In this document: piece by piece, positions 8,931 through 25,604 of the stretch
How the letters are laid out: every line of letters starts with the position of its first letter
Position numbering within the stretch: the first letter of the stretch is position 1
NCBI GenBank assembly: GCA_947492135.1
Contig: CANLQR010000018.1
Location: 1 to 34,860, forward strand
DNA from: Deltaproteobacteria bacterium
GTDB taxonomy: Bacteria; Myxococcota_A; Polyangia; Nannocystales; Nannocystaceae
Length of the DNA stretch: 34,860 nt
Reading direction: 5' to 3'
The notes under the pieces: model-generated
What the model was told of the DNA's origin: nothing
The model's input: only the letters and a program-made list of their open reading frames with translations
The model's database searches: none
Translations under genes and position numbers: made by a program

Positions 8931-9464
8931 ATGCGCCTTCTCGCCCTCGTCGCGCTGCTGCTGTCGGCCTGCTCGCAGCGGTCTGCCCAAGACTCTACCG
9001 CGCCGCCCCTGCGCACGGTCGCGCGCGTCGAGCTCGATCGCTACCTCGGCACGTGGTTCGAGATCGCCTCGTACCCGCAGCGATTCCAGCGCGACTGCAC
9101 CGCGACCAAGGCGACGTACAGCCTCGACGACGACGGCGACATCGTGGTCGAGAACCAGTGCCGCAAGCACACACTTGACGGCAAGCTCGACACCGCGAAG
9201 GGGCGCGCGCGCGTGGTCGATGCGAGCACGAACGCGAAGCTCGAGGTCAGCTTCTTCCGGCCGTTCTGGGGCGACTACTGGATCATCGACCTCGGGGCGC
9301 AGTACGAGTACGCCGTCGTGGGGCACCCGAGCCGCGAGTACCTGTGGATCCTGTCGCGGACGCCCACGCTCGATCCGACGGTCTACGCCGGCATCCTCGA
9401 GCGGCTGGTCGCGCAGGGCTATGACACCTCGCGGCTCCACGTGACGCTCCAGCCGCCGGCCTGA
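8931..9464 (+). CDS. blc: Bacterial lipocalin (Blc-like) lipoprotein
   Basis: A small outer-membrane lipoprotein of 177 residues. The signal peptide ends in the lipobox LLSAC (Cys14). The lipocalin hallmark G-x-W is in RYLGTWFEIASYPQRFQRDC, followed by alternating beta strands such as YSLDDDGDIVVENQC, and the family-typical GDYWIIDL and YLWILSRTP. Bacterial lipocalins bind lysophospholipids or fatty acids and are linked to envelope stress. The ATG at 8931 begins directly with the signal peptide. It is intact among broken neighbours. Confidence 0.92.
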   Translation: MRLLALVALLLSACSQRSAQDSTAPPLRTVARVELDRYLGTWFEIASYPQRFQRDCTATKATYSLDDDGDIVVENQCRKHTLDGKLDTAKGRARVVDASTNAKLEVSFFRPFWGDYWIIDLGAQYEYAVVGHPSREYLWILSRTPTLDPTVYAGILERLVAQGYDTSRLHVTLQPPA

Positions 9465-9500
9465 CGCATCCGCTACACTGCTCCGTGAAGCGGATACGAG

Positions 9501-9737
9501 ATGTCTGACGAACAACCTCGCAGTCCCCTGCATGGGATCACACTCGAGCAGATCGTGACCGAGCTGGTGGGCCACTTCGGTTGGCCCGAGCTCGGCGTGC
9601 AGGTGCGCATCCGGTGTTTCACCGACGATCCGAGCATCTCTTCGAGCCTGAAGTTCCTGCGCAAGACACCGTGGGCGCGCGCCAAGGTGGAGAGCCTCTA
9701 TCTGTTCATGCTCCGCGAGAAAAAGCGCGGGCGGTGA
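9501..9737 (+). CDS. VF530 family (DUF2132) small DNA-binding-type protein
   Basis: A 78-residue protein with the family's characteristic sequence: [17 protein letters not shown] near the N-terminus and [16 protein letters not shown] towards the C-terminus. VF530 proteins form a compact helical fold proposed to bind nucleic acid; the function is not settled. The start is the ATG at 9501. An inverted repeat (ATCCGCT 9468-9474, AGCGGAT 9489-9495) sits just before it, possibly a regulatory site. Its stop is immediately adjacent to the convergent hydrolase remnant. Confidence 0.9.
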
Positions 9738-10111
9738 TCAGCGCTGCGGCTCGGTCGTCGGGGCGAACACGTCCTCGAAGAATCGCACCATCTCCCGCCA
9801 CGAACGGCGATCCGCGTCCGCGTCGTAGGCCATGCCGTTCGCCGGGTCGCGCGCATTGGGGTTGGTGAATGCATGCCCGACCCCAGGATAGGCGTGCAGC
9901 TCCCAATCGGCGTTGCTGCGCTTCATCGCCTCCGCGAAAGCGCCGACGTCGGCGGGGGGAACCATCGGATCGTCCTGGCCGTGCAGCACGAGGATCCGGG
10001 CGTGCACAGGCTCGGCGAGGGTCGCATCGGTCCTGAGCAATCCGTGAAAGCTGACCACGCCGCGCAGCGGTAGGCCCATCCTTCGCGATAGGGGAGCGTC
10101 TCGGAGGGCAT
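9738..10111 (-). pseudogene. Dienelactone hydrolase with internal deletion
   Basis: The C-terminal part (9738-10079) is a good DLH half: LRGVVSFHGLL, ILVLHGQDDPMVP with the catalytic Asp, and HAYPGVGHAFTNP with the catalytic His. The protein would normally be about 240 residues, but the middle with the nucleophile Cys motif is absent. Directly upstream, an ATG at 10111 begins MPSETLPYREG, which looks like the genuine DLH N-terminus, in a different frame. The gene therefore seems to have lost some 100 or more internal codons, leaving both ends. Confidence 0.7.
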
Positions 10112-10243
10112 CGCGGTGACCCTAGCAACCCGGCGGCCGGTTTGTCGTGCGGATGCCGGTTCACCGAGATTTGGGTCCGGACGACACCTTGCGCGGGGAT
10201 GGGGGCCCAAGCGGGGAAAGCTGTCTCGCCGTCGGGGCGAAAA

Positions 10244-11290
10244 TCAGGTCGACGCATCTGGCGCCGGCGGCTTTCCGTCGTCGTCGCGCTCGAGGACCAG
10301 CGCTTCGATGAGCAGTCGCACGATGAGCGGGCCGAGAATCGCCCCCCATGCACCCATCACCATGAGGCCGCCGAACGCGGACACGAACAGCGCGAGCATG
10401 GGCATGCGGAGCAGGCCGACCCTCGCGAACACGGGCCGCAGCAGATTGTCGATTGTACCGATGACGCCCAGGCCGAGCACGGCGAGGATCGCCGCCTTCA
10501 CGGGATGGTCGGTGAGCAGCAGTCCGAGCGCGACCGGGATCCAGATCATCGCGGAGCCGATGACGGGGATCACCGCCGCGATGCCGGTGAGCGGCCCGAG
10601 AACCATCGCCTGCGGCACGCCGAGCGCGAAGTAGGCGATCGTCGCGACGCCGCCCTGCGCCGCGCACGTCAGCCCGACGCCGATCAGCAATCCCCGACCG
10701 GTCTCCTCGAACGCGGCGGCGAAACGCTCGAGATGAGTGCGGCGCAGCGGAGCATGGCGAACGATCCACTGCCAGTCGGCGGTGCCTTCGCGCATGAACA
10801 CGAAGGTGCCCGAGAAATAGACCACCAGGAGCAGCAACGCTTGGGCGGCGGCGCCTGCGACGTTCGTGAGCAAGGTGAAAGCCTCGCTGCCGTAGTCCCG
10901 ACCGAGTGCCACCAGGTCGTCGAGCGTGCGCGGGATCGCGAACGAGTCGCCGCCATTGCCACCGCTGGCGAGCTCGCCGAGGGCAGCGGACGCCGTCGGG
11001 GAGCTCGCGACGGTCGCGGCCAACTCGCGGGTACCGACGAAGACGCCGACGCTGAGCAGCACGACAGGAATCGCGCCGACGAGGGCAACGAACGAGGTGA
11101 GGATCACGGCGGCCAACCGCCGACCTTTGAGGCGGCGTTCGAGCCGCGCCATCAGCGGTCGCAGCAGCGACGCGGTCCATGCCGCGAGCACCAGCGCTGG
11201 CCACAATGGCCAGCACAGCCACAGCGCCGTCGCCCCCAACAGGAGCGTCGCCCAGCGCAGTGCCAACGTCGAATCCAGTCCGGCAGACAT
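10244..11290 (-). CDS. AI-2E family transporter (TqsA/PerM-like permease)
   Basis: An integral membrane protein of 348 residues with the layout of the AI-2E/UPF0118 family: two or three N-terminal helices, a large soluble loop (about 120-160), then five closely packed helices. The family's conserved C-terminal parts are visible: GLLIGVGLTCAAQGGVA, PLTGIAAVIPVIGSAMIW, and IDNLLRPVF followed by MPMLALFVSAFGGL. Homologues export autoinducer-2 or act as Na+/H+ antiporters; the substrate cannot be predicted. ATG at 11290 is preferred over an in-frame ATG 36 nt upstream; neither has a clear Shine-Dalgarno. Confidence 0.88.
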   Translation of the reverse strand: MSAGLDSTLALRWATLLLGATALWLCWPLWPALVLAAWTASLLRPLMARLERRLKGRRLAAVILTSFVALVGAIPVVLLSVGVFVGTRELAATVASSPTASAALGELASGGNGGDSFAIPRTLDDLVALGRDYGSEAFTLLTNVAGAAAQALLLLVVYFSGTFVFMREGTADWQWIVRHAPLRRTHLERFAAAFEETGRGLLIGVGLTCAAQGGVATIAYFALGVPQAMVLGPLTGIAAVIPVIGSAMIWIPVALGLLLTDHPVKAAILAVLGLGVIGTIDNLLRPVFARVGLLRMPMLALFVSAFGGLMVMGAWGAILGPLIVRLLIEALVLERDDDGKPPAPDAST

Positions 11291-13293: not shown

Positions 13294-13755
13294 TCAGCCG
13301 TCCGACATCCGTTCTAGCGCCTCGATGTCGGCGAGATCTTGAAGCCGCGCAGTGGCGCGCTTGTTTCGAATCAGCGCATCGCGCCCGATCACGGGGATGA
13401 CTCGACCTTCGAGATCCATCTCGACGCGGCTGGCCCACGCGTCGGCGAAATCGATACCGTCGACCTCGGTGATGACGTCGATCCGGAGCGGGGCAAGGCC
13501 GATTTGCACCGTTCTCCCGGGCTTCTCGAAGTCTTCGCGCGAAACACCGAGAGCATGCAGCGGCGCACCGAACTCCGCCAACGCTCGCTCGATTCGAGCC
13601 GCTTCCGCAACGCCCGTAGCAACGAAGACATCGATGTCCTTCGTCGCGCGCGGATGTCCGTGGAAGGCCACCGCGTAGCCGCCGATGACGACGAAGCTCG
13701 CGCTCGCGTCGGCGAGCGCGAGCAGCATGTCGCGGAAGTCGTCGGGCAGGTTCAT
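13294..13755 (-). CDS. Nucleotidyltransferase-fold protein (AbiEii/DUF6036-like)
   Basis: A 153-residue protein of the DNA polymerase beta-like nucleotidyltransferase superfamily. The active-site region is VVIGGYAVAFHGHPRATKDIDVFV (given here by its key residues: the GG, the H-G-x-P-R and the D-x-D pair, near residues 25-47). A third acidic position may be in LRIDVITEVDGID. ATG at 13755 overlaps the stop of the preceding small gene by 4 nt. Such stand-alone enzymes are often toxins or abortive-infection proteins that nucleotidylate tRNA or proteins, but some are antitoxins. The direction of action here is unknown. Confidence 0.75.
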   Translation of the reverse strand: MNLPDDFRDMLLALADASASFVVIGGYAVAFHGHPRATKDIDVFVATGVAEAARIERALAEFGAPLHALGVSREDFEKPGRTVQIGLAPLRIDVITEVDGIDFADAWASRVEMDLEGRVIPVIGRDALIRNKRATARLQDLADIEALERMSDG

Positions 13756-13958
13756 CGTGGAGCCCGCGAGATCACGCGGACAGGGATCGTCGCCCGTGTG
13801 TACGAGGGCCAAGGTCGGCCCGACATCGTCCACGCGATGCGGCTCAGGTCCGCTGCGAGCGAGACGCGCTCGGTCGGCGACAGCGGCGTTTCTGTACCGA
13901 GCCGCGCCGCGCGTGCTCGCGCTCGATCGCGACGGGCGGTTTCGTCGGCGTCGGCCAT
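13752..13958 (-). CDS. Small partner protein of the nucleotidyltransferase
   Basis: A 68-residue, Arg- and Ala-rich, mostly helical protein with LSPTERVSLAADLSRIAW and then GRPWPSYTRATIPVRV. Its stop overlaps the nucleotidyltransferase start (ATGA), so the two are co-translated. The arrangement resembles a two-gene toxin-antitoxin unit. I do not recognise a named family. It could be the antitoxin, a substrate carrier or simply a small conserved partner. The start is the ATG at 13958. Confidence 0.6.
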   Translation of the reverse strand: MADADETARRDRARARAARLGTETPLSPTERVSLAADLSRIAWTMSGRPWPSYTRATIPVRVISRAPR

Positions 13959-16887: not shown

Positions 16888-16996
16888 TCAACCGGACGGT
16901 ACCTCGTTCACCGGCACGACGGCGACGTCCGAGCCGGGGTTGCGATCGGTGTCGAGGAACTGGCGTTCTCGTTGTCCGAGAAGAGCATCTGGAAGA
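16888..16996 (-). pseudogene. C-terminal tail of a gene cut by an IS end
   Basis: Minus-strand frame GQRERQFLDTDRNPGSDVAV followed by VPVNEVPSG and a stop. It reads like a real protein tail and is interrupted at 16997, exactly where the first IS-end repeat starts. The parent gene is not identifiable. Confidence 0.35.
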
Positions 16997-17210
16997 GGCG
17001 GATAGCCTGCATAAAGGGGGTTCCGTACTTGCGATGACCAGTGATCTCGGCGTTCGCGCCTCGGCGTGAGGGTCGCGACGTCGCCGTCGAGCGCGAGCGG
17101 CCCGGGCGTGCGTCGTCGATCTGTTGTCCCCAATACGCGCAGGCATCACCCGACGAGTCGCGCGAGCGTGGGACACGATCTCGAGGCGCACGCAGGAGCG
17201 CGGGCGTGAT
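16997..17210 (-). repeat. IS-end repeat, copy A
   Basis: It begins ggcggatagcctgcataaag and shares interrupted blocks with copies B and C: GGCGGATAG at the tip, ACAAAGGGG-like, TCCGT, then GATCTGTTGTC and ATACGCGC, and an inner GATCTCGA block. It has no transposase attached and is probably a solo terminal fragment of the IS91-like element, lying in the same orientation as copy B. The segment 17211-17262 shows nothing recognisable. Confidence 0.5.
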
Positions 17211-17262
17211 TCCAGCGAGTGGGATCTTCGCGCGGCGGCTCCAGGACGACACCCTGTCGCCG

Positions 17263-17475
17263 GGCGGATAGGTCGGACAAAGGGGATCCGTGGTTGTCAC
17301 AGCCCGAGCCCGCGGCGTTCTCGGCGTTCGCAGGGCTGCCGGGCTGGCCCCGTGGCGCAGGCATGCGCCGGGTGGCGCACCCCGAACTGTCGTGGCCGAT
17401 ACGCGGGTTGCATCACGCGGTGTGCGGAGGGAGTGTGCGCGACGATCTCGACGCGCAGGCAGCCGTGGCGGTAGT
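17263..17475 (-). repeat. IS-end repeat, copy B, downstream of transposase relic
   Basis: It starts ggcggataggtcggacaaag at 17263 and runs up to the stop codon of the transposase relic at 17485, so it is the 3' terminal sequence of that element. It shares the tip (GGCGGATAGG), GACAAAGGGG, ATCCGTG, CTGTCGTGGCCGATACGCG and GCATCAC blocks with the other copies. Confidence 0.55.
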
Positions 17476-17484
17476 CGCCGCGCT

Positions 17485-17771
17485 CTACTCGACGTCGGTG
17501 GCTGGGGTGGCGTCATCGTCCGCGAGCGGCTCGTCGTCGAGCCGCCGGGACGAGCTAGCTGTCCGACTCCGGTGGCCCGCGGGCTGGCCACAGCTCGGGT
17601 GCATCGCTCGGAAAGCCGACGTGCGAGGGGCATCTTGCTTGCCACGCGGTTGTCGGTGATCTACGCGATCGGCCTCATCCGACCGCCGCACTTGTCGCAG
17701 AGCAACATGTCGATCGAAGACTCGCTGCATCAACTCGGGCCATCGAAGCCCACGCGGCTGCATGGGCGCGC
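17485..17771 (-). pseudogene. IS91-like transposase, C-terminal relic with frameshift and stop
   Basis: On the minus strand one frame gives LRWPELMQRVF, the next continues SIDMLLCDKCGGRMRPIA, then a TAG and ITDNRVASKM. The last part returns to a frame ending DDEPLADDDATPATDVE before the stop at 17485. The CxxCGGRMR zinc motif after a WPELMxRVF helix is the usual C-terminus of IS91/IS801-type (HUH) transposases. The catalytic His and Tyr domain is entirely missing. The element is dead. Confidence 0.65.
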
Positions 17772-17789
17772 AGGTGAGCGCGGCGGATG

Positions 17790-17981
17790 AGCCGACCCGC
17801 ATCGCGAGTCTCGCTGCAGTCTGATGATGCACCGATACACCGCGCGTATCCGAGATCCGAGACGACAGATCGGCGACGCAGGCCCGGGCCGCCCGCGCGC
17901 CCGGACGCCGCGCGCGGACCGGCTGACCCCGAGATCTCGGGTCATGACGAGCACGGACCCCCTTTGTCCCTCCTATCCGCC
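17790..17981 (+). repeat. IS-end repeat, copy C, inverted
   Basis: The reverse complement begins ggcggataggagggacaaag and contains GGGGGTCCGTG, TCATGACCCGAGATCTCGG, GCGTCGCCGATCTGTCGTC and ATACGCGC, matching copies A and B. It faces copy B with the transposase relic between them, so two elements of opposite orientation were fused or rearranged here. The 200 bp after it (17982-18180) show no gene and should hold the promoter of the ATPase operon. Confidence 0.5.
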
Positions 17982-18180
17982 GCGGCGATGACCGGTCGAT
18001 CGTGGGCCGGCGTGTCCAGACGAGCGGCGCGTTCGCGTCGGCGCGTGTGTGATGCGGCCGCGAACGGCCACCTGCGGCCCGAGGCTCATCGCCCGCGTTG
18101 GGTTGGGGAGCGGCGCGGGTTGTGGGGGTCACGCGGTCTGTACGTGCTCTGGCTGCTGCTCGGTTGGGAGTTGAAAGGGC

Positions 18181-19668
18181 GTGTGGTACGTTCTCGGCGT
18201 GTATCTTCGTACACTGGATGCCGGTTACTGGCGCACGCAGATCCGCGGTCTCCGCGTTTCCGGGTTCCGCGGACTCCGAAGCGTCGACCTCGCGGACCTA
18301 CCGGACATTGTCGTCCTTCATGGCCCGAACGGAGCAGGCAAGTCGAGCCTGATGCGAGCAGTCGAGCTCATCGTACGCTGGCTCGGGAACTCGGCGCAGG
18401 CAAGCATCCCTGACGCGGAGCATCCCTCTCGCCTGGGATACGCCGAGGCTCGCGACGCACTTGGCATCGATCGCGACGACTTCTGCAGAGGGGCAGGCCC
18501 CGAGATCCGCATCCGACTGGAGATCGAGCTTGGCACTCGCGCAGGCCCGCTCATGCGTGCGGCTGCGATCCGACGGGGTCGCGTGGTTCTTGAGGCGGTC
18601 GTGCGCGACCTCGGAGAAGAAGCGGGGATTTCCCATTGGTTCGAGTCGTCAACGCTCCACTCGGACATCTCGGTCAACACCGTTCTGACGGAGGAATACT
18701 TTGATGACCTCCTTGCGCGGTCCAGATCCGCGAGCGACGCTGGCGAACGAGCGGCGCTTAGCGAGCAGTTCCACCGAGAGTACGTGGAGTTCGAGGGGAT
18801 CACGCGCCTGCGAAACCTTACGCTCGGGACCAGCGCGGAGCGGCATCATCTCCGTCACCTCCTGGAAATCGGCGGTGCCTACCGGCGAATCGTACGAGAG
18901 CCGATTCTGGGTGGGAGCGGCGAAGCCGCGAGCGACGCGCTTCAGACGCAACTCCGCCGGGCGTCCATGTCCAGAGAGACAGAGCAGTACCGGTTCTGGA
19001 CCTCACTGCCAAGTCTGCTCGCAGACGCGGGACTCTTCGACGGCAAGCCAGCACGCTTTCGTCCAAGCGACGACGAGGTGTACAACGAGACGTCGTTGCT
19101 TGTGAGCACCGAGCATCACGATGACCTGCCTATCTCTCATCTAGGGACTGGGGAACAGCAGCTGATTGCCATGGTGACCTCGATGTGTCTACGCGGAGCG
19201 CCGATCGTCCTGATCCAGGAGCCGGAAGCGCATCTCTATCGCGACGCACAGTTGAAGCTTGCCGGATTTCTTCGGCGCTCAGTTCATTCTCAGTTCGACC
19301 CACCGAGGTTCGATCAGCTCTGGATCGAAACCCACCATCATGCGTTCGCGCTCGCGCCCGAGTATCTGGATGTCTCGCTTGACGACCAAGGATACACACG
19401 CGTAGAGAGGCGTCCTCGGATCGCTGCACAGGGTCATTTCTACGAGCCGGGTCCCGTGCTTGATGCGTTGAAGCAACTGGTCGAGGATCAGAAACAGCTC
19501 AACGGAGACAGCGTCGTATTCCACAACGGTGCTGGGACACCGGTGACGGCCGGAGAGATCCTTGCATCGCTCGATGGTGACCAGGAGGTTGCTCAGCAGT
19601 ACACCGAGGCGGTGACCCGAACTGTCGTCCGGCTGCTGGAGAAAGCGACCCGCGGCAATGCCCCGTGA
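18181..19668 (+). CDS. ABC-type AAA ATPase (AAA_21/RecF-SMC-like), putative defence sensor
   Basis: A 495-residue cytoplasmic ATPase. The N-terminus has the RecF/SMC-like start VSGFRGLRSVDL. Walker A is GPNGAGKSS (48-56). The ABC signature is LGTGEQQ (321-327) and Walker B is VLIQEPEAHL (343-352), with Gln at the usual Asp. ETHHHAF, about residue 382, is at the switch-His position. The insertion between Walker A and signature is long and partly coiled. There is no TOPRIM motif after the ATPase core, unlike OLD or GajA proteins. It resembles the ATPase subunits of PARIS and Septu in layout. GTG 18181 and GTG 18199 are both possible starts. The partner gene follows after 10 bp. Codon use looks less GC-rich than the neighbours, suggesting transfer. 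Confidence 0.85.
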   Translation: MWYVLGVYLRTLDAGYWRTQIRGLRVSGFRGLRSVDLADLPDIVVLHGPNGAGKSSLMRAVELIVRWLGNSAQASIPDAEHPSRLGYAEARDALGIDRDDFCRGAGPEIRIRLEIELGTRAGPLMRAAAIRRGRVVLEAVVRDLGEEAGISHWFESSTLHSDISVNTVLTEEYFDDLLARSRSASDAGERAALSEQFHREYVEFEGITRLRNLTLGTSAERHHLRHLLEIGGAYRRIVREPILGGSGEAASDALQTQLRRASMSRETEQYRFWTSLPSLLADAGLFDGKPARFRPSDDEVYNETSLLVSTEHHDDLPISHLGTGEQQLIAMVTSMCLRGAPIVLIQEPEAHLYRDAQLKLAGFLRRSVHSQFDPPRFDQLWIETHHHAFALAPEYLDVSLDDQGYTRVERRPRIAAQGHFYEPGPVLDALKQLVEDQKQLNGDSVVFHNGAGTPVTAGEILASLDGDQEVAQQYTEAVTRTVVRLLEKATRGNAP

Positions 19669-19678
19669 GGGAGTTTCG

Positions 19679-20065
19679 ATGCCCGACTACGTCCTGATCG
19701 CATTGGTAGGTGACACCGCGACACGAAACGCTGCCGCGCTCGCGGATCGCCTTTCGGAGCGACTTCCGCCGACCCATCGCCTTTCTCAGGACGACGTCAA
19801 AGACTTTCGTCTCGGCACCGGACAAACGATTGTTTTTTTCGGCCACGGCCTGACCGGCGGACTCGGTAAGACGACGCGAGAAATTGTCTGCACTGCAGAG
19901 AACCTCGGCTCGCTGTTCTCGGGCTCCCGAATGTTCGTATACGCGTGTGACACACTCTCCGAAGCGAACGGCTACCGTTCATGGATTGGACGACGAGAGA
20001 GATCTTCAAAAGATTGGTATCGAGGCCGCGGCGATCGGAATGACCGACCTCAAAAAGTTCTTTAG
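19679..20065 (+). CDS. Small caspase/CHAT-like protein, putative effector
   Basis: It follows the ATPase by 10 bp with a good GAGGGAG site before ATG 19679. The first about 100 residues read as an alternating beta/alpha fold: DYVLIALVGD, then TIVFFGHG with His56, then SRMFVYACDT with Cys90. A His-Gly after one hydrophobic strand and an A-C-D/T after the next is the dyad arrangement of caspase-like (C14) and CHAT proteases. The frame after about residue 102 (GRRERSSKDW...) looks like noise and stops at 20065. Sensible sequence continues in the +1 frame to 20162, so the gene is probably frameshifted and about 160 residues when whole. The protease call is inference from the fold pattern. Confidence 0.55.
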   Translation: MPDYVLIALVGDTATRNAAALADRLSERLPPTHRLSQDDVKDFRLGTGQTIVFFGHGLTGGLGKTTREIVCTAENLGSLFSGSRMFVYACDTLSEANGYRSWIGRRERSSKDWYRGRGDRNDRPQKVL

Positions 20066-20162
20066 TCTCGGTACGGCGCTGGACCAACTGTATCTTCGCC
20101 TTTCGGTCGTGACTAAGCCTGGGAGTATCTCTGGTCAAGAATCAAGGCAAGAGCCAGCCTAG
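19985..20162 (+). pseudogene. Continuation of the caspase-like gene in the +1 frame
   Basis: The frame reads LDDERDLQKIGIEAAAIGMT, then DLKKFFSLGTALDQLYLRLS, and stops at 20162. It has good protein character, whereas the frame of the upstream gene here does not. Skipping one base near 19989 joins the two. Whether this is a sequencing error, a decay mutation or a programmed event cannot be told. Confidence 0.5.
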
Positions 20163-20171
20163 CAGCCTGAG

Positions 20172-20573
20172 GTGAAACGACGCGACAACGGGCAGGGCTA
20201 CGAGGATTACCTGATCGGGCTCGCGAAGGCGTCTGGCATCGAGACACCAGCACGCCAGGATCTGGCACGGATCGACCGCAAGCGGCCGAAGAAGGGCTCG
20301 AACGAGGACTGGCGCAGCCCGACCGACACCGATGCGCAGATCATGAAGATGAAGGATGGCCGCACGCATCTCGCTCACAAACAAGAGCACGCGGTCGACA
20401 TGGACACCGGCGCGGTGCTCGGCGTGACGCTCGCTGGCGGTGCCGCCCATGCCGCCGGCAGGCGGCCTCGTCGCCGAGGACGACGAGAAGCTGCAGATCT
20501 GGCTGCGCTGCAATCCCTGACCGCAGCGCCGCCCAGACCTCGGGTCCTTGCTGGACGCCGCGCGGGGCACTAG
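20172..20573 (+). pseudogene. DDE transposase fragment (IS1182/IS5-type)
   Basis: Starting near GTG 20172 the sequence reads YEDYLIGLAKASGIETPARQ, RIDRKRPKKGSNEDWRSPTD, then MKMKDGRTHLAHKQEHAVDM and TGAVLGVTL. This is the central region of DDE transposases with a DUF772-type N-terminus, where SNxDW and HKxEHAVDxxTG are very conserved. After about 20437 the frame becomes Arg/Ala-rich noise, so both ends of the transposase are missing. It closes the accessory zone on the right side of the ATPase pair. Confidence 0.7.
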
Positions 20574-24167: not shown

Positions 24168-25550
24168 TCACTTCGCCGGGCTCGGCTTCACGAGCCGACC
24201 CATGAACAGGATCGTTCCGGTCTTCGTGTCGCGCACGAGGAACAAGAACGGATGCTTCGCGACGAACGGCACCGGCTCGTGGGTCGGTGCCCCTCCGACC
24301 GTCATCGACGCCGTTGTCGCGGCTGCGGCCTCGGTGCCGGCCTCGTCCACGGCGAGGAACGCCTTGTGGTAGGCCTCGGAGATCACGAGCTGATCGGCCT
24401 TCGGCGCCATCGCGGTGAAGTCGGCCTTGCTCGCATCCCACGCGGTGACGAGGCCGAGCTTCTCGAGTGGCTTGCGCAGCTCGATCGCGGCCTCGGGCTC
24501 GATGCGAAAGCGCGGCACACCGAGCGCGACGCGGGTGTACGTTGCGGCGGTGAGCCAGCGATCGAGCGCGTCTGCAGTGAGCGCCTTCTCGACGTCGGCG
24601 AGGCCCTTAGGATGGTCGGGTAGCACGATCACCATCGAGTACTCGCCGCCGTTGTACGTCATCTCGAGGATGCGGGCCTTCGCGTCGGCGGCGGTGCCGA
24701 GCCTGTACTGATCGACGCGGTGCATCATCCTCACCGTCGTCTTGCTATCGCCAACGAAGGGCTCGTCCCTCGTCTGTGACTCCTCGAATCCCCCGGCCCA
24801 CTGCGCCTTGAAGTAGATCGCGTTGACGAGCACGAGGCGCGTGTCCGCTGTGACGCCCGAGGCCGGCAGCAGGTCTTTGATCCTGTCCTTGGTCTGCTTG
24901 GCGACCCAGAGGTTGATGTGTGTGCGGGCGTCGGCGCTCGCGCCCTTGAAGTCCAGCGACTCGAGCGGCGCCGCGAAGATGTCCTGGGTGAGCGCGAGGT
25001 ACGGCGCCTCGAACGTGACGGTCTTCTCGCTGAAGAGGCGATTGGCGACCGCGAGCTCGAGGCCACCGGTCGCGGACGACCAGCGCGTCAGCGTGGCCTT
25101 CAGCGCCGGGTGCAGCGTCTCGCCGGCCGGCAGGTGGAACGTCTTCGCGATCTCGTCGGCCGTCGCACCCTTCGCGCCCGCGTGCACCATCGCGAACGCG
25201 AGTGCCATGCTCGCGGGCGACACGAAGAGGTTGCCGGGCTTCGCACCGAGCTCGCGATGGATGTCGATCGCGAAGGTGTTCATGCCCTTCGCGAGCGCGA
25301 GCGCGGTCTCCGGAGCGACGGTCGGCGGCGGTGCGTCGACCTTGGTGTAGGGCTGCTTCGCATCGATCTTGGTGTCGAGCTTCGCGTCCAGCTTCTTCGC
25401 GTCGAGCTTCTTGTCGTTCTTCTCCTTCACGTCTGCCTGCGCGGACTTCTTGTCATCCAGCTTTGCCGTGGTGTCCGTGCCGGAGCTCGGACATGCCGTG
25501 AGCGACACGACCACCGAGAGTGTGACGAGAGCGCGGACGGGCTGCGACAT
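24168..25550 (-). CDS. Serpin-family protease inhibitor, lipoprotein
   Basis: A 460-residue lipoprotein. The signal peptide ends at SLTAC (Cys20) and is followed by a highly charged Lys/Asp repeat linker (KLDAKKLDAKLDTKIDAK). The serpin fold (about 75-458) has NLFVSPASMALAFAM, LVLVNAIYFKAQWAGGF, and the C-terminal HPFLFLVRDTKTGTILFMGR. The reactive-centre hinge is GTEAAAATTASMTVGG, which keeps the small residues needed for loop insertion, so it should be inhibitory. Counting from the hinge puts P1 near Val/Gly, suggesting an elastase-like target. AGGAG precedes ATG 25550. Likely role: protection from self or prey proteases at the cell surface (inference). Confidence 0.95.
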   Translation of the reverse strand: MSQPVRALVTLSVVVSLTACPSSGTDTTAKLDDKKSAQADVKEKNDKKLDAKKLDAKLDTKIDAKQPYTKVDAPPPTVAPETALALAKGMNTFAIDIHRELGAKPGNLFVSPASMALAFAMVHAGAKGATADEIAKTFHLPAGETLHPALKATLTRWSSATGGLELAVANRLFSEKTVTFEAPYLALTQDIFAAPLESLDFKGASADARTHINLWVAKQTKDRIKDLLPASGVTADTRLVLVNAIYFKAQWAGGFEESQTRDEPFVGDSKTTVRMMHRVDQYRLGTAADAKARILEMTYNGGEYSMVIVLPDHPKGLADVEKALTADALDRWLTAATYTRVALGVPRFRIEPEAAIELRKPLEKLGLVTAWDASKADFTAMAPKADQLVISEAYHKAFLAVDEAGTEAAAATTASMTVGGAPTHEPVPFVAKHPFLFLVRDTKTGTILFMGRLVKPSPAK

Positions 25551-25604
25551 CGCGCTCCTTCTATCCGTTTCGGCGCGCGTGATCCAGCGCAGCGATTGCA
25601 ACCG

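Follow-up and report, generated by a model that had tools for sequence, protein, structure and literature searches.

A recurrent myxococcal gene pair of an SMC-type ATPase and a small protein of predicted caspase-like fold, a candidate immune module

An ATPase gene followed by a small gene

Our question was whether two adjacent genes in a genome of the Nannocystaceae form an immune module in which an ATPase is paired with a protease. The best-known partners of SMC/ABC-ATPase sensors in bacterial immunity are nucleases: Septu consists of the ATPase PtuA and the HNH nuclease effector PtuB, and PARIS has a layout of AriA ATPase and AriB TOPRIM effector. A preliminary description of our locus proposed that a caspase-like protein here takes the place of the nuclease. 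The window, by which we mean the whole stretch of DNA analyzed, comprises 34,860 nucleotides (contig CANLQR010000018.1, forward strand). The first gene of the pair (18181..19668, + strand) encodes an ATPase of the SMC/Rad50-head type (AAA_21/AAA_15 class, PtuA/AriA-like) of 495 amino acids when counted from the first GTG; its real start is probably further in, because the starts chosen in most relatives lie about 29–37 residues ahead of Walker A. Sequence and alignment locate a complete Walker A motif (GPNGAGKS, 18322..18345, + strand) and an ABC signature (LGTGEQQL), and Pfam finds no TOPRIM family in the ATPase or in the small protein of the window, in agreement with what had been claimed for the ATPase. 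Pfam returns AAA_21 (E = 1.6e-12) and AAA_15 (E = 3.8e-12), and mad3, AriA (E = 2.7e-13), HEC-01A, NsnB, GajA, and PtuA (E = 2.1e-9) are among the best 25 of 102 matching PADLOC families, none of them decisive. Walker B (19216..19221, + strand), located by alignment and a pattern table, reads QE in the window; at the position of Gln-346 the other ATPase rows of that table have Glu (13/14) or Asp (1/14), giving EE or DE in 14/14.

The second gene begins with an ATG at 19679, 10 nt after the ATPase stop codon. Its frame (19679..20065, + strand), assigned to a caspase-like protein of predicted clan CD fold, contains the predicted catalytic residues His-56 (FFGHG, codon 19844..19846, + strand) and Cys-90 (VYACDT, codon 19946..19948, + strand) at the positions given previously. 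The gene had been taken as one frame running to 20162, but the frame of the His and Cys codons stops at 20065 and the remainder lies in another frame. A profile of the small-protein family matches the window at 19688–19963 (E = 6.7e-6). When we built the profile from 12 intact relatives and left the window out, it recovered the window frame 19616–20062 with E = 5.9e-12, compared with E = 0.025 for the next of 604 frames, and the match is thus more than chance. Similarity to the family stops just past Cys-90, near position 19963, beyond which the window frame appears to be out of register with its relatives.

The Cys and a conserved Gly are 54 codons apart in L087 and L089 and 56 in L044 (such labels denote loci with relatives of the pair). 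In the window the segment that aligns here is out of frame, and 37 nt lie between Cys-90 and its Gly. Measured against the 54 codons of L087 and L089, about 125 nt are therefore absent. The segment (19980..20162, + strand; HGLDDERDLQKIG...) may be a remnant of the C-terminal helices, and its local matches are weak: the best one falls on the same conserved Gly in L044, L087, and L089 and elsewhere in L042, with 20, 423, 313, and 232 of 1000 shuffles, respectively, reaching the observed score. Against the profile of the 12 relatives it scores 2.5 bits (E = 4.2), and its reading as a C-terminal remnant is only suggestive. The C-terminal half of the small-protein fold was not found in any frame of the window. 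We rejected a programmed frameshift, as the loss of about 125 nt goes beyond a mere change of frame.

The pair is less GC-rich than its surroundings, as had been noted (0.59–0.61 across 18.5–20.5 kb versus 0.66–0.72 in the neighboring intervals). It had also been placed between insertion sequence relics. This holds downstream, where a transposase relic (20172..20465, + strand) identified by tblastn matches 14 plasmid records; the eight listed rows are all annotated as transposase (56–62% identity), one of them as IS5 family, and Pfam returns no match for the relic. Upstream, own-genome matches define a 1.2-kb stretch of dispersed repeat DNA (16960..18180, + strand; 39 matches, including itself and its own inverted repeats), but its IS nature is not established. 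The window copy of the pair looks decayed: its small gene is cut short and changes frame, and its Walker B motif deviates. Because of these changes to effector gene and ATPase it is probably inactive. A decaying copy is the simplest reading of the small-gene damage, the Walker B change, the transposase relic, and the repeat DNA; the genome is a draft (754 contigs, completeness 89.8%), and an assembly error may account for the small-gene damage. The preliminary description had missed the apparent inactivation.

Relatives of the pair and linkage of its two genes

Single-protein searches had left the impression that the small protein is without relatives, which was overturned by the ATPase and the small-protein profile. 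In a phylum sample of 377 genomes, the ATPase finds matches at E ≤ 1e-8 in 12 genomes, the window's own included, and seven members of the window's subfamily (L022–L028) are among them. L029–L033 (E = 3.7e-10 to 7.6e-9) were set apart as a wider ATPase group in which the C-terminal part of the profile is unmatched (matches extend up to 345–365 of about 440 positions); with the small-protein profile, L029, L031, and L032 have no match at E ≤ 0.05, and L030 and L033, which are the same place, reach only E = 0.003–0.008. An alignment of the C-terminal ATPase part, scanned over 84,980 species genomes with a reach set by two peptide patterns, returned 11 loci (L034–L044), six of which are the contigs of L022–L026 and L028 again. 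They are labeled Deltaproteobacteria, delta proteobacterium, Myxococcales, Myxococcota, or Polyangiaceae, apart from L037, which is labeled Proteobacteria, corresponds to the contig of L023, and is counted in the window's phylum. A class-wide search of 317 genomes with an ATPase profile matches 12 of them at E ≤ 1e-30, including the window's own genome and two fragments, and added three loci from the family to which the window belongs (L087, L088, and L089) as well as the fragments L090 and L091. Three other genomes of the window's genus have no ATPase match at E ≤ 1e-12.

L042 and L043 are near-identical across the pair and were counted once, and L080, L084, and L085 contain the same proteins as L038, L041, and L044. 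With duplicates merged, there are 16 distinct loci outside the window (L027, L034–L041, L042/L043, L044, and L087–L091). Among the genomes reached by our searches, all subfamily loci outside the window are in its phylum or labeled Myxococcota. A tree of the ATPases puts the window together with L042, L044, L087, and L089 (100/100), and 8 of 11 inner branches are unresolved. The proteins of the pair have no match in plasmids or viral contigs, and the L034 small protein, the one compared with phages, has none there. Searched alone in the phylum sample, the small protein matches 29/377 genomes at E ≤ 0.1; besides the window these are weak fragments (best E = 0.018), which we dropped.

The gene pair is real and recurrent by sequence comparison. 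A small gene encoding 190–230 amino acids directly follows the ATPase gene, which encodes about 430–540, in 12 of the 16 loci (L027, L034–L038, L041, L042/L043, L044, L087, L088, and L089), and the linkage that the preliminary description had put forward as a check thus recurs. The two genes overlap by 4 nt (ATGA or GTGA) in 10 of these 12 pairs; the overlap is 1 nt long in L042/L043 and 35 nt long in L044. The genome of L088 is a single contig of 13.2 Mb, and the pair is therefore no artefact of draft assemblies. Pairwise distances of ATPases and small proteins correlate (Mantel r = 0.82, reached by 19 of 5000 permutations; n = 9 loci).

The other four loci are damaged or have no small gene. 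In L039 the ATPase is intact, but all that is left of the small gene is an N-terminal remnant (profile positions 1–38, E = 4.8e-5), which was also recorded as L053. The ATPase of L040 is frameshifted and its small gene is absent; L090 preserves a C-terminal part of the ATPase, close to where its stretch ends, and no small-protein match; and in L091 an N-terminal part of the ATPase precedes a fragment of the small protein (E = 6.6e-7). Both L039 and the window have a lost or shortened effector beside an ATPase frame that is still open, as expected of a costly effector. Small-protein matches are seen without a visible ATPase at L050, where the match begins at the contig end, and at L051, where it lies beside a histidine kinase and a response regulator (read by eye); L054–L056 are weak matches (E = 0.003–0.005).

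Conserved residues and predicted folds

An alignment of the 12 intact small proteins has seven invariant columns: the start Met, the His, an Ala-Cys pair, two Gly, and a Leu near the C terminus. The His and Cys that had been proposed as a dyad are thus invariant in 12/12 sequences, and both are present in the window. The Gly that follows the His is replaced in L044 (GHNG) and in L042/L043 (GHCG). Nine of the relatives were compared with family libraries; they belong to no PADLOC or NCBIfam family and have nothing relevant in Pfam (best E = 0.054), with TOPRIM absent in Pfam and HNH absent in Pfam and PADLOC. None of the nine matches the Pfam families for caspase C14 or CHAT (PF12770 in PMC10952713) at E ≤ 1. 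The window protein has no match to these families at E ≤ 10, a range in which the HMMER filters drop most matches above 0.1. A profile search of the PDB with the small protein gave six matches, the best being a designed protein (E = 1.9e-5) over the C-terminal helical stretch.

We obtained an AlphaFold2 model of the L034 small protein from nine sequences (pLDDT 90, pTM 0.88). The first 14 Foldseek matches of this model are SAVED-CHAT, DdvA, caspase-11, caspase-4, and separase chains (E = 4.4e-5 to 7.3e-3, six at E ≤ 0.001), with SAVED-CHAT at the top (E = 4.4e-5); DdvA carries a CHAT-like domain. From the 15th match on, flavodoxins and other Rossmann-type folds are among the hits (E = 0.008 and above). 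VIA aligns the model with gingipain RgpB (Z = 13.5, r.m.s.d. is 3.2 comparing 163 aligned residues), SAVED-CHAT (Z = 12.2, 3.5, 162 residues), separase (Z = 11.6, 3.1, 154 residues), and TPR-CHAT (Z = 10.7, 3.7, 154 residues); legumain/asparaginyl endopeptidase, caspase/MALT1, and metacaspase follow further down, and the best 50 rows are all clan CD-type chains. Clan CD peptidases place a His and then a Cys at the ends of successive core strands, and in the L034 model His-61 follows strand 55–59 and Cys-100 follows strand 94–98. The small protein is thus predicted, on the model of this relative, to adopt the clan CD fold of caspases, CHAT proteins, and separase, the outcome anticipated in a structural test set beforehand.

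A model of the window ATPase built from 11 sequences (mean pLDDT 75.5, pTM 0.69) matches SMC heads, Rad50 heads, and PtuA in both Foldseek and VIA. Foldseek returns a cohesin head (E = 2.6e-14) and PtuA of Septu (E = 8.0e-14), and VIA an Smc head (Z = 21.8, r.m.s.d. is 4.1 comparing 296 residues) and PtuA (Z = 20.8, r.m.s.d. is 3.7 comparing 298 residues). These Z values lie within 1 of each other and are tied, and we therefore place the ATPase in the SMC/Rad50/PtuA group and no finer. The checks of fold, dyad conservation, and linkage all failed to refute the proposed architecture, and a PtuA/AriA-class ATPase with a protease fold replacing the nuclease is therefore a fair description of the modeled pair.

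Genomic context and possible function

The position of the pair between IS relics and its lower GC content had been read as expected of a defense island. We compared 106 neighbor proteins, 24 from the window and 82 from ten other loci, with PADLOC at E ≤ 1e-40 (best 25 of 31 matching families); the genes were taken from a crude codon-composition caller that errs and misses genes, for example a long open frame in L036 (14002–16392). The matches that could be assigned to a gene, apart from one discounted below, lie in four loci: a DrmD-like helicase is located 74 nt downstream of the pair in L036, a type I methylase upstream and divergent in L041, a type II cytosine methylase downstream and convergent in L035 (E = 2.4e-148), and, some 3 kb away in L037, an Mrr-type restriction enzyme. 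Restriction or DISARM-type genes are thus found near 4 of the 10 scanned relative loci, which is not a strong defense-island signal; none was found at the other 6, nor was any assigned by PADLOC among the scanned neighbors in the window. The window has an AbiEii-like nucleotidyltransferase 4.3 kb from the pair (E = 3.4e-6), and its contig has no match for the PDC-S01 family or for the cytosine methylase family of L035. A PDC-S01 match in L037 was dropped as defense evidence; it corresponds to a DUF4143 ATPase with many matches in several of these genomes. A control set of 110 proteins, small and drawn from contig starts in six of these genomes, gave at the same cut-off one member each of PD-T4-6, mad6, and a kinase model and no restriction family. 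The difference in restriction-type genes (4/82 neighbors versus 0/110 controls) is modest, with p of about 0.03 calculated by hand.

Membership in Septu or PARIS was rejected, since the fold of the partner differs. PtuA is among the nearest structures of our ATPase and likewise works with a separate effector, but the NCBIfam PtuA model scores the window ATPase with 23 bits against a cut-off of 500, and the partner has a predicted clan CD peptidase fold and no HNH match. PARIS is similar in that AriA models are among the best PADLOC matches of the ATPase, but here the partner has a protease fold in the model and no TOPRIM match. OLD and Gabija GajA differ by a TOPRIM domain after the ATPase domain; our protein ends about 150 residues past Walker B and has no such Pfam match. 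The CHAT effectors SAVED-CHAT and TPR-CHAT (Craspase) resemble the small protein in structure, SAVED-CHAT being its top match, and in the order of His and Cys, but the small protein has no fused sensor domain and no Pfam CHAT or caspase match; if activated, it would be activated by a separate ATPase. According to PMC10586767, Lamassu joins an SMC-type sensor (LmuB) to exchangeable putative effectors (LmuA), among them one type with a predicted trypsin peptidase domain and other enzymes. The link of an SMC-type ATPase to a separate effector is shared, but our pair is a conserved two-gene unit with an ATPase in the size range given above. LmuB is absent among the best 25 of the 102 PADLOC families matching that ATPase. 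LmuA combines an N-terminal enzyme with a C-terminal docking region; the partner here is a single compact clan CD domain in the model, with no PADLOC match among the nine relatives. A PtuA-like ATPase is also reported with other partners (ptuXYZ) in PMC11980606, and one ATPase class with many effectors is thus an established theme.

We consider it reasonably probable that the pair is a two-gene immune module, with an ATPase sensor and an effector of clan CD protease fold, in the style of PARIS, Septu, and Lamassu. We infer this defense role from the architecture and from the restriction-type genes near 4 of the 10 other scanned loci. Counting against it are the six scanned loci where no such gene was found, the transposase-like or metabolic-looking surroundings of L098–L100 (read by eye), the absence of matches in plasmids and viral contigs, the Rossmann-type folds among the later Foldseek matches, and the damage to the window copy. 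The ATPase would probably assemble into an oligomer, like PtuA, AriA, or LmuB, and sense foreign or abnormal DNA or a phage protein. To judge by fold, dyad, and pairing, it would keep the clan CD protein inactive until triggered and then switch it on, and the active protein would cleave host or phage proteins and halt the infected cell, a form of abortive defense. This scheme borrows from Lamassu, as described in PMC10586767, and from Septu and PARIS. The stronger claim, to which we give about an even chance, is that the module is undescribed and that its PtuA/AriA-type SMC-head ATPase acts directly as the gate of a free-standing clan CD protease. With an ABC-type in place of a STAND ATPase, it would be a minimal two-protein counterpart of the apoptosome and inflammasome, in which an ATPase scaffold is combined with a caspase. 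The general plan of ATPase and effector is known; the small protein is unrecorded in the family libraries searched (Pfam, NCBIfam, and PADLOC), and we found no description of the two-gene pair in the open-license PMC literature. A recurring SMC/ABC ATPase with a small clan CD protein would extend sensor-effector logic to the caspase superfamily and would provide a minimal setting in which to study how a caspase-like protease could be activated by an ATPase sensor; with two short genes, a predicted dyad and ATPase site, and a dozen natural variants, it is directly testable.

We consider unlikely a regulated proteolysis pair unrelated to phages, in which a cellular substrate (for example a DNA-bound or SMC-associated protein) is presented or remodeled by the ATPase and then cut by the clan CD protein, much as separase cuts cohesin. 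The SMC/Rad50 head of the ATPase and the separase chains among the best structural matches of the small protein would suit it, as would L099 and L100, which by eye lie amid metabolic-looking genes (L098 has transposase-like genes), but patchy presence (12/317 genomes of the class and 0/3 other genomes of the genus) and repeated decay suit an accessory role better than housekeeping. Still more doubtful is a toxin-antitoxin-like addiction pair of a mobile element, with a protease-fold toxin, the ATPase as antidote, and phage defense as a by-product. It would explain two overlapping genes, the transposase relic and repeat DNA by the window copy, the transposase-like genes near L088 (read by eye), and the loss of the effector with retention of the ATPase frame in L039 and the window; however, an ABC-type ATPase is unusually large for an antitoxin, and gene order and size are unlike those of classic toxin-antitoxin pairs. 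It is improbable that the small protein is a clan CD relative without enzymatic function, in which His and Cys were retained by chance and which serves the ATPase as structural partner or adaptor: inactive CHAT and caspase homologues do exist, and the Gly after the His is altered in some relatives (GHNG in L044, GHCG in L042/L043), but of the only seven columns that are invariant across 12 diverse sequences, two are the His and the Cys, and the Ala preceding the Cys is another.

Relatives of the pair at other loci

At L091, a fragment locus (G577:C1, 1489-2130) in a genome assembled as a single contig of 14.8 Mb, an N-terminal piece of the ATPase comes directly before a fragment from the middle of the small protein, which makes this a further decayed copy of the pair. 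In L043, a matched locus outside the window, a protein combining leucine-rich repeats with a PP2C phosphatase (9069-11162) starts 19 nt past the stop of the small gene.

The profile built from relatives of the small protein also matches at L051 (G252:C345, 186-911, minus strand; E 1.1e-13). This protein carries HG and Cys motifs, and its neighbours, identified by eye, are a response regulator and a histidine kinase: the fold family of the small protein in a different signalling context.

Other features of the window

Dispersed repeat DNA containing imperfect inverted repeats occupies 16960-18180. It has 39 matches in its own genome, itself included, and possibly represents a miniature-element family. 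An AbiEii/DUF6036-like nucleotidyltransferase is encoded at 13294-13833 (minus strand; E 3.4e-6).

Serpins, which are serine protease inhibitors, are uncommon among bacteria. One is encoded at 24168-25601 (minus strand), matching almost the whole PF00079 profile (E 8.9e-105), and its gene lies 4 kb from the protease-fold gene.
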